Source of the DNA: Bacteroidales bacterium
GTDB taxonomy: Bacteria > Bacteroidota > Bacteroidia > Bacteroidales > Tenuifilaceae
NCBI GenBank assembly: GCA_028708425.1
Contig: JAQVYY010000007.1
Span: 33,165-97,164, forward strand
Reading direction: 5' to 3'
Length of the DNA: 64,000 nt
Positions within the stretch are counted from its first letter, which is position 1; the number at the start of each line of letters is the position of its first letter. Position numbers and translations under genes: made by a program. Under the pieces are notes generated by a model, which saw only the letters and a list, made by a program, of their open reading frames with translations, did not search any database and was not told the DNA's origin. This document shows, in pieces, positions 56,508-62,153 of the stretch.

Positions 56508-57023
56508 CTACTTTTTCCGTTCTTTTTTAGTTGTTACGATTATTACACCATTGGCAGCGTTATATTTTTTCAAGGCCTGCTCTCCTCTAATCACTTCGAT
56601 ATTTTCTATATCATCAGGGGATATCTCTTTAAGCATTTTTTGGTCTGATTTCACCCCGTTAATAATTACCACAGGAGCCTCTGTCTTGGTGCTATAATCT
56701 TTATCCTTTGCTTTGTATTGATTATTCTCATCTACACTAGTTTTTGTTGTAATAAGCAGCACGCCATTCTTTGCGTTGTACTCCTTTATTGCCTTATCAC
56801 CTTTAAGAACATTTATGGATTCAATTTTATTTACGTCCAACAAACCCACAGGGAAATCGAATTTTTTTCCATCAACATAAATATCTGGTTTTGCATCATC
56901 TTTTAGCTTAATATGAAGTTTTTCCTGTATTGAACTTTTATCTGTTGTCTCGTTACCCTCTTGTGCTTGAATTAACGAAAATGATAGTAACACTGCACAT
57001 GCAGCTAGAATTAAGTTTTTCAT
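56508..57023 (-). CDS. Small exported protein with two TonB-plug-like repeats
   Basis: A 171-residue protein with a signal peptide (~1-20). The rest consists of two similar units: IESINVLKGDKAIKEYNAKN + GVLLITTK and IENIEVIRGEQALKKYNAAN + GVIIVTTK. Each resembles the core of a TonB-dependent receptor plug domain (normally ISVLKDASAAAIYGARGANGVILITTK), but there is no barrel. It lies 40 bases downstream of the anti-sigma gene. It may bind or regulate a SusC-type receptor or modulate sigma/anti-sigma signalling. No function is established from sequence. Confidence 0.85.
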   Translation of the reverse strand: MKNLILAACAVLLSFSLIQAQEGNETTDKSSIQEKLHIKLKDDAKPDIYVDGKKFDFPVGLLDVNKIESINVLKGDKAIKEYNAKNGVLLITTKTSVDENNQYKAKDKDYSTKTEAPVVIINGVKSDQKMLKEISPDDIENIEVIRGEQALKKYNAANGVIIVTTKKERKK

Positions 57024-57063: not shown

Positions 57064-57492
57064 TTATTCGGCAGTTGTATAAATAATAAGCATTTCGTTT
57101 TCAAAAATAATGTTTTGCGCAACATCTGCTCTATCTGTATTAGACAGCATATTTAGAGCTTGATTTAGCAACGCCTCTTTCTCAGCAAAGTTGAGCTCTT
57201 TTTGTCGTGGGTTGGATATAGAAAGAGATATTAATAAAATGGCTGAAGCCGCTGCTGACATGATTCCAACAAGTATCTTGCGTCTTCTAATTCTTTTATT
57301 TTGAAATGATTCCCATAGTGTATCATTAAAATTCTTTGGGGCTTCCGTTTTATTGTTTCTCACGAAAGAGGCCCATACCTCGAATGAAGATTCTGAGTTT
57401 TGGGCATTGTCAAACAAAAACTGTTCTTCGTTTAAAGTAGTGTTTCCCTCTTTATATTTTTCAATTAATCTTTTAACTTCACCCTCTTTCAT
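57064..57492 (-). CDS. Putative membrane anti-sigma factor
   Basis: A 142-residue protein with an N-terminal cytosolic segment (EVKRLIEKYKEGNTTLNEEQFLF, typical of Bacteroidetes anti-sigma factors), one membrane helix near residues 73-95 (KILVGIMSAAASAILLISLS) and a short periplasmic tail of ~45 residues. Its ATG overlaps the end of the upstream sigma gene in the frame that encodes region 4, so the two were once translationally coupled. The sigma gene is broken, so this protein may have no cognate partner. Confidence 0.8.
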   Translation of the reverse strand: MKEGEVKRLIEKYKEGNTTLNEEQFLFDNAQNSESSFEVWASFVRNNKTEAPKNFNDTLWESFQNKRIRRRKILVGIMSAAASAILLISLSISNPRQKELNFAEKEALLNQALNMLSNTDRADVAQNIIFENEMLIIYTTAE

Positions 57493-57987
57493 AGCTATAT
57501 ATTTTTCCTAGTTTTATACTTACCTGCTTTCTTGCTCGTGATAACAAAACTCTCACATGCTCAATTTTAAGCTGTGTAGCAGCAGCTATCTCAAAAAACT
57601 CATACCCGTCTAAGTCTCGCATTATTATAGCCTCCCTTTGTTGTTCGGGTAAACTTTCAATAATTTTTTTAATTAATGTCTATAGCTCTTTGCACTCTAA
57701 CTGGTCTTGACTGTTTTCTGATTTTAATAGCTCCAGCTGCAAGGGAGAATCATAAGTTTCTAGTCTCTTTTTTTCATTACATCAATACAGTAATTGCGAG
57801 CGGTTAAGAATACAAAACCTGTAATATTGGGATGTTGTCCAATTTGCTTACGCTTTGCCCAGAGTTTCATCATTATTTCTTGAATGGCATCCTCAGCGTC
57901 TGTATTATTTCCAAGCATTCGTGAAACCATAGGAAACAAACGCTCAGAAAGTGAAAACACATTAAGCTGAAATTCTGTCTTATTCAT
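57479..57987 (-). pseudogene. Broken ECF-type RNA polymerase sigma factor gene
   Basis: The ORF 57760-57987 encodes sigma region 2 (NTDAEDAIQEIMMKLW, NYCIDVMKK) and then stops. Shifting frame at the A7 run (T7 at 57768-57774 on the plus strand) restores reading into linker and region 4 (LPEQQREAIIMRDLDGYEFF, then RVLLSRARKQVSIKLG), ending at a TGA that overlaps the anti-sigma start. In the restored frame a TAG at 57680-57682 still interrupts the gene between KEL and TLIKK. So one frameshift plus one nonsense codon separate the two conserved regions. A sequencing error in the homopolymer could explain the frameshift but not the stop. Confidence 0.85.
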
Positions 57988-58280: not shown

Positions 58281-58486
58281 CCGAGGCGGTGCCTCGAATT
58301 ATTGGTATTGTAGGGATTTGCGCCCTGCAAGGGCAGGTTAAAAAGAAAAGCTTTTTTGGTTTGGCGCAGCCAATTACATGTACGGGTTAGGCTAAGCCGT
58401 AAGGTGTTAAATGCAAGATAAAACAACGCTGTAAATCGACTTAAAATCCTGCGTAACGTTAATAAAGCACGTATTGATATAAAGCT

Positions 58487-58523
58487 AAGAGCCTCAGCCA
58501 TTCTAAAAACGGCTGAGGCTCTT
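58487..58523 (-). terminator. Strong terminator hairpin after the outer-membrane protein gene
   Basis: AAGAGCCTCAGCC and GGCTGAGGCTCTT form a perfect 13-bp stem with an 11-base loop, 19 bases beyond the stop of the minus-strand gene ending at 58542. On the minus strand the stem is followed by AGCTTTATATC, a weak U-tract. Confidence 0.7.
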
Positions 58524-58541
58524 AACATACGATAAAATCGC

Positions 58542-59534
58542 TTAAAAATCTAGCAACCTTAACCCAATGGTGAACGGGTAAAGCTCATCACCTTTATTCT
58601 GCTCAAACATAGGGGTCATATAGTAGTTTACAAAAAGGCTAATACTATTAAACCCAATGCGCGCAGTAAAACCATATCTAAAAGGGTTCATATTAAAATC
58701 ATCCCTTATTTTATCTTTGCCTTTGGTAGTCCCCTTGTAAACTATCTTCGTGTTTGAACCTATTCGAGCCCCTCCCAAAACGCCTACCGATACAAAGAAG
58801 TTATAGTACGGATGCCGGGAAGGAAGATTAAACTCTAGCAATAATGGTGCAACAAGGTGTAATGTTCTAAGACTCGACTTGGTAACATTCATATCAGGAT
58901 TACCAACATAGCTGTAATCGGCTACTGTTATACCGTTATCATCAACCCTAATGGTGTTGTTATTACGGAAACGATAAATATTAAGTTCAAGCCCCAGACC
59001 CGTAACCAGACCAACCTTGTCCGTGCCAAAACCTATGCTATACTGCATAGGATTAATGTTAAGGTTCAACGATCGGGCTTGGTTTATCTCAAAATATCTC
59101 AAATCGCCCTGCATGTTTAGCGAGTGTTCTGGATCCATAACGCCGTTTAATCCAAATTCTAAACCTGCCCAATTTCCTTTAAACCTTGGTTTGTATACGT
59201 ATTTATAGTTCTTGTTTTTATTGGAATCAAAGGTATGCTTATCCTTATTATTTGGTATTTCGATACTTGTTTTATCGCCATTTTCGATAATAATTACGTT
59301 CCTTTTTCCTACTCGAATGCGTGTTGTATCAGTAGTGCTAAACTCTTTCTTTAAATCATTAACGTAAAGGGTATCCGTTTTATTAAACGCTCCATGAACT
59401 ATAACAGTGTCTGCAGTGAATTTTATTATGGTGTCGTTTAGTTCCAATTGGCGCAGTTTTTCAATATTTATGTCTTGCGCATTGCCGTAAAAAAAGGCGA
59501 GAAAAATTAACAGTGTTGTGGCTAAAAGTTTCAT
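58542..59534 (-). CDS. Outer-membrane beta-barrel protein, likely ECF-sigma target
   Basis: A 330-residue exported protein. A signal peptide (~1-19) is followed by ~100 polar residues containing short repeats (FTADTVIVHGAFNKTDTLYV), and then a barrel of alternating aromatic strands (WAGLEFGLNGV, YSIGFGTDKVGLVTGLGLEL, YGFTARIGFNSISLFVNYY) that ends FTIGLRLLDF with a C-terminal Phe. It resembles PorT-like or OmpA-like small barrels. It lies in the same direction as the sigma/anti-sigma operon but has its own upstream signature shared with the sigma gene, so it is probably controlled by that sigma factor. Confidence 0.88.
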   Translation of the reverse strand: MKLLATTLLIFLAFFYGNAQDINIEKLRQLELNDTIIKFTADTVIVHGAFNKTDTLYVNDLKKEFSTTDTTRIRVGKRNVIIIENGDKTSIEIPNNKDKHTFDSNKNKNYKYVYKPRFKGNWAGLEFGLNGVMDPEHSLNMQGDLRYFEINQARSLNLNINPMQYSIGFGTDKVGLVTGLGLELNIYRFRNNNTIRVDDNGITVADYSYVGNPDMNVTKSSLRTLHLVAPLLLEFNLPSRHPYYNFFVSVGVLGGARIGSNTKIVYKGTTKGKDKIRDDFNMNPFRYGFTARIGFNSISLFVNYYMTPMFEQNKGDELYPFTIGLRLLDF

Positions 59535-59562
59535 GTCAATAAATTTTAAATTGTTTTGTTGT

Positions 59563-59590
59563 ATGACAGAGACGCAAATAAAAAGTTACA
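59563..59590 (-). promoter_or_regulatory. Candidate ECF-sigma promoter of the outer-membrane protein gene
   Basis: On the minus strand, TGTAACTTTTTAT (59590-59578) is followed by TGTCATA (59568-59562), with 16 bases between AAC and TGTC. The same 13-base box and the same 16-base spacing to CGTCTTA occur before the sigma gene. The -35 AAC and -10 GTC cores are typical of ECF promoters. Confidence 0.65.
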
Positions 59591-59607
59591 GTGATAGGCA
59601 ATTATAT

Positions 59608-59660
59608 TAACCCACATCGCACATTAAAATCATTAAAGGAGAGTGTAAATACGGGGTTAA
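59608..59660 (+). repeat. Interspersed repeat, copy J (hairpin 1 only)
   Basis: TAACCCACATC ... GTAAATACGGGGTTAA corresponds to hairpin 1 of the family with both arms, and nothing of hairpins 2-4. The final TTA is the stop codon (TAA on the minus strand) of the anti-sigma gene at 59657. Confidence 0.6.
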
Positions 59661-60697
59661 TTTTCCTTATCTTTCTTTACGGGCAACGATAGAGCAAAAA
59701 ATGGGGATTCGAAATTTATTCGTTTAATGTATCCATTGGCATCCGTCTCCTTAGCTAACGATATATTCTTTTCTGTAAGTCTAGCTAACCTATTTACCCC
59801 CATTTGAACCAGTTCGAAAACACCAACTTCCCGCGTACCCGAAGTAGTTTTGTTCACACTCCCTGAACGGTTATAAACCATTGCCAGTAATTCCTCCGAA
59901 TTTATACCAATATGATTTACTGCATTATAAGATATACTATTTACACCAATACTTGAAAGTTTTTGAACTGTTGCTTCGCGTTCAACTTGGACCGGTTCCA
60001 GGTTCACAACCACCTTTTTCTGAACTTTAACATCCGAACCCATGATAAGAGGTTTTACTTGCGCCAATCTTTTTACCTCAACCTTGGGTATGGGTAGGGT
60101 GGGCTCCTTAATTACCAAAGGTTTGACTAAATAATCGTTTTCCCTTTTTGGCTGATGGGTAATTGCCACAGGTTGTGCTGAATATTCCGATTTATTTGGA
60201 ATGAAAATCGAAACCCCTAATAGTATAGCAACCACGGCAGCAACCGAACCTACAGATGCAGCTAGCTGCCTGTACGTTAACCCCATAAAAGCGTACCGCT
60301 TTAGCTTCGCCTTGCCTGCGTAGGTAATCGTAGTATCGGGAATAAGCTTTGCTTTTTGGAATAGCGCAAAACCCTCAGCATTAATGTTACTCTGGGTAAG
60401 TTTTTTTTCCAGCTCCTTACTTTCGGGGGCTGTAATATCACCCTCCAGCTTGGCTATGCTGAGGTAATCCAATCGATTATCAATACCGCAGTACGATGTA
60501 TCTTTATATACAGAATGCTTGTTGGGATACTCTTGGCTAGTGGGTTGTAAAATGGTTTGCTCAAGCCCATCGAGTTCCTCGGCAAGGTGGTGGTTTAGTG
60601 CTAGGAAGCCGCGCAACTCTTTCTCCTGCGAGGGCGTCAACGTGCCATCGATATAATCTATAACGTAGAGTTCGTAGTTTTCGCTGTTAATATTCAT
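59657..60697 (-). CDS. Transmembrane anti-sigma factor
   Basis: A 346-residue protein. The N-terminal ~130 residues have the anti-sigma pattern (ENYELYVIDYIDGTLTPSQEKELRGFL, repeated as RLDYLSIAKLEGDITAPESKELEKKL). One membrane helix follows (about residues 145-168, AASVGSVAAVVAILLGVSIF), then a Pro/Val/Lys-rich periplasmic region and a short folded tail. It begins two bases downstream of the sigma gene. It likely sequesters that sigma factor and releases it upon an envelope signal. Its stop codon lies at the edge of repeat fragment J. Confidence 0.88.
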   Translation of the reverse strand: MNINSENYELYVIDYIDGTLTPSQEKELRGFLALNHHLAEELDGLEQTILQPTSQEYPNKHSVYKDTSYCGIDNRLDYLSIAKLEGDITAPESKELEKKLTQSNINAEGFALFQKAKLIPDTTITYAGKAKLKRYAFMGLTYRQLAASVGSVAAVVAILLGVSIFIPNKSEYSAQPVAITHQPKRENDYLVKPLVIKEPTLPIPKVEVKRLAQVKPLIMGSDVKVQKKVVVNLEPVQVEREATVQKLSSIGVNSISYNAVNHIGINSEELLAMVYNRSGSVNKTTSGTREVGVFELVQMGVNRLARLTEKNISLAKETDANGYIKRINFESPFFALSLPVKKDKEN

Positions 60698-60699
60698 TG

Positions 60700-61185
60700 C
60701 TATATCACCGTTTCTAAATTCCCAATATACTGTTTCAGGGCAAGCCGTGCCCGGTATATATAAACCTTTACCTGCGACTCTGTTAATCCGGTAATATCCT
60801 CAATCTCTTGATACGAATACCCCTCGTAATCCCTTAGTAAAATAACCGAACGCTGAATTTCGGGTATCTTTTTAAGCGCCTCGTGGAGAATCTCCTGCAA
60901 ATCGCTATAGCCCGAATTTGTCGAAAGGGGGTGTTCAGTTACGCTATCCAATGAGGTGCTCCGCCCGCTAATTCTAATAATGTCGATACATGCATGATAT
61001 GCCGATGTAAAGAGGTACGATTTTACCTTTATAAAATCTACATTCTCGTGCTTAACCCATAATCGCTCAAAGCAATCCTGCACAACGTCATCGGCCCTGT
61101 TGGTATCGCTCAGCATTTTTACAGCAAATCGATACAAACCATCCGCATACTTGTCAACACACGAATTATATTCCTTTGAAGTCAT
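60700..61185 (-). CDS. ECF-type RNA polymerase sigma factor
   Basis: A 161-residue sigma factor with region 2 (DTNRADDVVQDCFERLWVKHENVDFIKVKSYLF) and region 4 (LKKIPEIQRSVILLRDYEGYSYQEIEDITGLTESQVKVYIYRARLALKQYI), both intact. It lies two bases from the anti-sigma gene. The upstream TGTAAC/CGTC signature is shared with the outer-membrane protein gene at 59534, suggesting positive autoregulation. The inducing signal is not evident. Confidence 0.95.
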   Translation of the reverse strand: MTSKEYNSCVDKYADGLYRFAVKMLSDTNRADDVVQDCFERLWVKHENVDFIKVKSYLFTSAYHACIDIIRISGRSTSLDSVTEHPLSTNSGYSDLQEILHEALKKIPEIQRSVILLRDYEGYSYQEIEDITGLTESQVKVYIYRARLALKQYIGNLETVI

Positions 61186-61210
61186 TAATTATATGGGTGT
61201 TTTCGCCTAT

Positions 61211-61238
61211 AAGACGGGTAAGCGTATAAAAAGTTACA
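61211..61238 (-). promoter_or_regulatory. Candidate autoregulated ECF promoter of the sigma operon
   Basis: On the minus strand, TGTAACTTTTTAT (61238-61226) is followed after 16 bases from AAC by CGTCTTATA (61216-61208). It is identical over 13 bases to the box before the outer-membrane protein gene. It lies 28 bases before the sigma start codon. Confidence 0.65.
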
Positions 61239-61361: not shown

Positions 61362-62153
61362 ATGAGAAGAATATTTTTAGCACTAATCACTTCAACCTTT
61401 ATTTTAGGTTGTAGCAGCGTTGCAACTGATAGTAAACAAAATATGGAGCAAGAAAACCTTACCCTTGCAACCATATGGTACCAAAACTCTCCCGAGGTAA
61501 AAGCGCTGTATTACCAAGGATTTAATATTGCGCAAGAGAGGGTACAAGAATTCCAAAAGCAAAAAAGCGATAGGCCCAAGGCAGTTGTGGTTGATTTAGA
61601 TGAAACCATGATAGACAACAGCCCCTTTCAGGGAAAGATGATTGAAACGGGCAAACCGTTTACCCCCGAGATGTGGGACGAATGGGTTACGCTTGAAAAA
61701 GCCGAGGCCATGCCGGGAGCTGTTGAGTTTACGCAATTTTGTAAAATGCAGGGGATTGAGGTTATATATCTTAGTAACCGCACTGTCGGCCAACAGCAAG
61801 CAACCATGAGCAACATGCATAAATTAGGGTTCGCCTTTGTAAAGCCCGAAAATTTTTATCTGAAAGACACTACCAGTAAAAAGGAACCACGCCGTCGACG
61901 CATATCCGAAAACTTTGACATTATCCTACTACTTGGCGATAACCTCAACGATTTTGCTCAGGTTTTTGAAGATAGGTATGAGGATTGGGGTAAAGCGAAT
62001 GTTGATGGGCAGCGCCAACAGTTTGGTCGAAAGTTTATTGTTTTCCCAAACCCCATGTATGGCGAATGGGAAAAAAATATTTACAGCTACGAGCGTGTAA
62101 AGGACGAGGAAACGCGTTTTTCTATGCGTCGTGAGACTTTAAAATCATTCTAA
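61362..62153 (+). CDS. 5'-nucleotidase / acid phosphatase lipoprotein of the e(P4) family
   Basis: A 263-residue lipoprotein (lipobox LGCSS, C17). It belongs to the HAD class: nucleophile motif VVDLDETMID, motif II YLSNR, and the C-terminal LLLGDNLNDF. It should dephosphorylate nucleotides or NMN in the envelope for uptake. The stop codon TAA is the first three bases of repeat copy K. Confidence 0.93.
   Translation: MRRIFLALITSTFILGCSSVATDSKQNMEQENLTLATIWYQNSPEVKALYYQGFNIAQERVQEFQKQKSDRPKAVVVDLDETMIDNSPFQGKMIETGKPFTPEMWDEWVTLEKAEAMPGAVEFTQFCKMQGIEVIYLSNRTVGQQQATMSNMHKLGFAFVKPENFYLKDTTSKKEPRRRRISENFDIILLLGDNLNDFAQVFEDRYEDWGKANVDGQRQQFGRKFIVFPNPMYGEWEKNIYSYERVKDEETRFSMRRETLKSF

Follow-up and report, generated by a model that had tools for sequence, protein, structure and literature searches.

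The window analyzed here, a stretch of 64,000 nucleotides taken as a whole, holds an ECF sigma factor gene, a gene for a membrane-spanning anti-sigma-like protein and an outer-membrane barrel gene which, with a probability of about 90%, belong to one circuit: a sigma/anti-sigma pair under positive autoregulation, with the barrel as its central conserved output. Sigma factors that regulate themselves are common, and to our knowledge few alternative-sigma promoters have been defined in Bacteroidota. The signature that appears to join these genes, TGTAAC-WWW-N13/14-CGTC-N-YA, is deeply conserved and information-rich. It links one group of sigma factors with an outer-membrane barrel, and many relatives also have it at DUF2807 (GIN), PspC, SppA, M16 and efflux genes. 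It outlines a candidate envelope-stress regulon that is testable in cultivable species and that places DUF2807 proteins, for which we know of no function, in a regulatory setting.

The sigma gene (60700-61185, minus strand) encodes a protein of 161 amino acids that matches Pfam Sigma70_r2 and Sigma70_r4_2. The protein is short and holds regions 2 and 4 only, as is expected of the ECF (group IV) class, and an AAC/CGT-type promoter before its own operon, a further mark of that class, is indicated by sequence conservation. The best NCBIfam model is NF058625, which describes the PG0214/GFO_1088 sigma factors and is matched over the full length (1e-34), but the score of 119.7 bits is below the curated cut-off of 130 and the protein is left unassigned to that family. 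The gene for the 346-residue anti-sigma-like protein (59657-60697, minus strand), named for its position and predicted architecture, starts 2 nt past the sigma stop codon, a gap that supports a single transcription unit for the two. A gene for a lipoprotein e(P4)-family 5'-nucleotidase/acid phosphatase (61362-62153, plus strand) is divergent from the sigma gene.

The earlier note had stated that TGTAACTTTTTAT is identical before the sigma and barrel genes and that AAC and the -10 core are 16 bases apart at both (CGTCTTA and TGTCATA). Both statements hold. The sequence is found exactly at 61238-61226 and 59590-59578 on the minus strand, with no further exact copy in the window, and a search of the window with TGTAAC-N16-[CT]GTC returns exactly two exact matches, TGTAACTTTTTATACGCTTACCCGTC (61238-61213) and TGTAACTTTTTATTTGCGTCTCTGTC (59590-59565); the 16 bases from AAC to [CT]GTC equal 17 when counted to GTC. 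From these exact matches and their conservation we predict an autoregulatory ECF promoter for the sigma gene at 61210-61238 (minus strand; TGTAAC as -35, N16, CGTCTTA as -10), in which the first T of TGTAAC is 53 nt from the ATG, and an ECF promoter for the barrel gene at 59562-59590 (minus strand; TGTAAC, N16, TGTCATA), with a corresponding distance of 56 nt.

Without comparative data, two matches found by eye are unconvincing, and alone they are weak evidence. The view that an AT-rich genome produced the shared motif by coincidence can draw on the raw counts: TGTAACTTTTTAT with up to two mismatches has 8 matches in the window against 7.5 expected, and TGTAAC-N17-GTC has 14 matches in the whole 3.5-Mb genome against 34 for the reversed control, so the pattern alone has no discriminating power. 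The version ending in [CT]GTC-N-[CT]A, with a spacer of 16 or 17, has 6 genome matches against 5 in the control. The genome scan that had been proposed as a check thus recovered the core pair but no enrichment of the loose motif, and genome-wide loose-motif counts, being at or below the control, were dropped as a test of the regulon. Two near-identical TGTAAC...GGGTC matches elsewhere in the genome (C63:5969 and C100:63458; L008 and L014) resemble copies of one repeat.

Comparative footprinting is far more informative than these counts, since positional conservation refutes coincidence. Homologous loci were taken from related whole genomes and from contigs of named genomes, the closest named relative being Perlabentimonas gracilis (Tenuifilaceae, Bacteroidales), with a sigma identity of 78%. 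TGTAAC-N16/17-[CT]GTC is present upstream of 89 of 101 distinct homologous sigma genes, typically 47-65 nt before the ATG; in the same 101 upstream regions dinucleotide shuffles gave a mean of 0.02 and the reversed pattern 0. Near-matches (AGTAAC...CGTC, TGTAAC...CGTT) at about -47 to -64 account for 11 of the 12 exceptions, for a total of 100/101. Barrel homologues were searched over the 1000 nt preceding the aligned region, with start codons estimated for the distant ones; the strict motif is found at 72 of 98 (reversed control 0), including 29 of the 30 close homologues, and the 26/98 without it are mostly distant. Given this conservation we see almost no chance that the motif is coincidental. 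As judged from these comparisons, the site pair is far beyond chance and the signature is kept across Bacteroidales and some other Bacteroidota.

The consensus of the sigma upstream regions is TGTAAC-WWW-T, a spacer of 16 or 17 about equally often, and CGTC-N-YA. Relatives keep TGTAAC followed by three A/T bases and mostly a T in fourth place, not the full 13-mer, and the exact agreement seen in this genome is therefore partly accidental; the TGTAACTTT core of the 13-mer is typical of relatives. The barrel -10 element here opens with T (TGTC), where the majority of relatives have C (CGTC).

The arrangement of the sites also bears on their nature. TGTAAC is a six-base box which a classical DNA-binding regulator could bind, and the motif could be such a binding site instead of a promoter. 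This is highly improbable in light of the two asymmetric boxes with a fixed 16/17 spacing, the single orientation, the distance of 47-65 nt from the ATG and the AAC/CGTC elements that ECF promoters typically have. What footprinting shows is selection on the sites, not the identity of the sigma factor that reads them. The genome encodes about 16 ECF-type ORFs in total and ECF specificities can overlap; the sites might then be ECF promoters read mainly by another sigma factor, in cross-talk or a cascade, with no autoregulation. We give this little credence, as the sigma gene studied here is the only ECF-type ORF in this genome with the motif upstream, site numbers track the presence of the anti-sigma across genomes, and the site is found at sigma genes of the same group in about 100 lineages. 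The earlier proposal of one shared, autoregulatory ECF promoter is supported by conservation across families together with the absence of the motif from other ECF genes here.

The inclusion of the barrel in the same response, also proposed earlier, is borne out by the motif at separated barrels and by the tendency of barrel and anti-sigma to occur together. The barrel gene is far from the anti-sigma gene or on another contig in 18 genomes of the order, and the strict motif is present at 12/18 of these barrels, with no sigma or anti-sigma homologue detected beside such separated genes. The motif is nonetheless present in G083, a genome that carries the barrel but no clear anti-sigma. Across 99 genomes, 67 have both barrel and anti-sigma, 16 have neither, and 13 and 3 have one of them singly; the odds ratio is 27 (p=4e-8, without phylogenetic correction), in a sample that outside the family studied here consists mostly of one genome per family. 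The stringent motif has 177 sites in the 99 genomes of the order against 37 in the reversed control, with 2.3 sites per genome where the anti-sigma is present and 0.64 where it is not (p=4e-6).

The signature extends to further genes in other families. Forty further sites were picked there before the downstream genes were known, and they precede DUF2807 (GIN) in six genomes, DUF5686 in three, PspC with LiaF-like transmembrane segments in two, S49/SppA in two, DUF5916 in two and one M16 peptidase, along with ABC/MacB/FtsX/OEP efflux genes, two sigma genes and a single barrel. The DUF2807 background is 1-5 matches per genome in nine sampled genomes, and six occurrences among roughly 33 sites greatly exceed what chance would give (p about 1e-11 by a rough Poisson estimate). 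Together, the targets in these families suggest that the signature controls an envelope-stress response. A search for the exact motif in a limited collection of literature found no match. Stand-alone DUF2807 genes in other Bacteroidales families carry the same promoter signature, and in two related genera it is found 51-56 nt before the start of an ABC transporter ATPase gene (L210, L211, L212).

The regulon of this genome looks minimal on sequence grounds, with two core sites and one doubtful third. Three of the six genome matches to the [CT]GTC-N-[CT]A version are upstream of genes in the correct orientation, the third being at an M16 peptidase gene; this is weak as a conserved target, with the site kept in only 2/17 orthologues. 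No site was found near any of the 5 DUF2807 copies of this genome. The ABC ATPase was rejected as a target here, with the site in 3/4 orthologues of other genera and no close orthologue (E<=1e-60) in this genome. The description of the regulon as small, given in the earlier note, accordingly fits this genome with its two good sites; in other families the signature also precedes further envelope genes.

The barrel gene (58542-59534, minus strand) encodes a protein of 330 amino acids with a signal peptide, a disordered N-terminal part and a predicted eight-stranded barrel at about 124-329. The assignment draws on the AlphaFold model (mean pLDDT 82; barrel region mostly >90) and on PF13568 (OMP_b-brl_2), which is matched by 40/45 relatives and for which this copy is under the threshold. 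Foldseek returned OmpA, OmpX, PagL and OMPLA types with low query-normalised TM-scores. Six relatives examined from other Bacteroidales families have a DUF2807 (GIN) domain fused ahead of the barrel in one protein (L192, L194, L200, L202, L203, L204). Directly past the barrel stop codon is an intrinsic terminator-like hairpin (58484-58526, minus strand) with a 20-pair stem and a T-rich tail, and this long, near-perfect hairpin is a strong terminator candidate. A terminator search of the interval between the anti-sigma and barrel genes found none, which leaves room for transcription of the barrel from the first promoter as well. The arrangement supports two predicted promoters for one sigma factor, by which the barrel could be boosted separately.

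The circuit would operate as follows at the level of individual steps that we infer from architecture and conservation. At rest, the N-terminal helical repeats of the anti-sigma would sequester the sigma factor at the inner membrane until an envelope signal frees it. The freed sigma factor would recognise TGTAAC-N16/17-CGTC-N-TA and transcribe the sigma and anti-sigma genes as one operon, possibly with transcription continuing into the barrel gene, and would fire the second promoter to boost the barrel alone. Positive feedback would be limited by the co-produced anti-sigma. Our best guess at the signal is outer-membrane stress, based on the targets and on a resemblance to the Reo/Dma systems.

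The anti-sigma role of the 346-residue protein is likewise proposed from its position and from an architecture based on hydropathy and on an AlphaFold model built with 39 homologues. The model has two three-helix repeats (about 8-115), a transmembrane helix (142-165), a disordered tether (about 167-290) and a conserved alpha-beta3 C-terminal domain (293-341). Both ends are confident and the overall pTM is 0.30, a low value that is expected of a tethered protein. Conservation is confined to the two ends and is lacking in the tether: the mean top-residue frequency is 0.60 and 0.48 in the two repeats, 0.19 in the tether and 0.43 in the C-terminal domain. Pfam gave no match above the cut-off for this protein, and no convincing relative of solved structure was found by sequence or by fold. 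A FecR-type anti-sigma paired with a TonB receptor was rejected, as there is no FecR match and a small barrel, rather than a TonB receptor, is encoded next to it.

In Dma-type anti-sigmas the barrel is within the same chain (Reo/Dma; PMC9308784, PMC13114119, PMC13088901). The module described here is similar in having an ECF sigma factor followed by a predicted anti-sigma with an N-terminal helical domain, a transmembrane helix and a long disordered tether, a likeness of architecture, and in including an outer-membrane barrel and a probable envelope-stress response. It differs in that the barrel is a separate ORF with its own predicted promoter and that the anti-sigma ends at 346 amino acids in a small conserved alpha-beta3 domain; with the barrel on a separate chain, we do not class the anti-sigma as Dma-type. 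Its architecture may nonetheless make it a split counterpart of these recently described sensors. In such a split dual-membrane-spanning anti-sigma, the conserved C-terminal domain, at the far end of a periplasmic tether, would dock on the separate eight-stranded barrel, and loss, overload or misfolding of the barrel in the outer membrane would free the sigma factor, which would refill the barrel through its own promoter. We regard this as speculative and rather unlikely. If true, two genes would together form a homeostatic sensor for the outer membrane, in use throughout Bacteroidales and in some neighbouring Bacteroidota. No fused anti-sigma-barrel ORF was evident in a search of 99 genomes of the order with an anti-sigma profile.

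RpoE/SigW-type regulons combine AAC/CGTC-like promoters and autoregulation with envelope proteases and envelope proteins. The predicted circuit resembles them in promoter type and autoregulation, and in the envelope proteases and proteins among the targets in relatives, but has a different anti-sigma, belongs to a different phylum and looks very small in this genome. Within Bacteroidota, transcription starts have been mapped in Flavobacterium psychrophilum SM6, where promoters with a CGT -10 box precede an ECF sigma/anti-sigma pair, an ABC ATPase and an outer-membrane protein; promoters of this type are thus shown to function in the phylum (PMC9723704). SM6 is comparable in its phylum and in the CGT -10 box before an ECF pair, and differs in that its regulon is centred on type IX secretion genes and induced by low nutrients (PMC9723704).

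A second ECF sigma gene adjoins the module and is broken (57480-57987, minus strand): region 2 (57760-57987) and region 4 are in different frames with an in-frame stop between them, the result of either a pseudogene or an assembly error. It is followed by a small unassigned ORF in the anti-sigma position (57064-57492) and by a gene for a protein with a TonB-plug-like domain (56508-57023).
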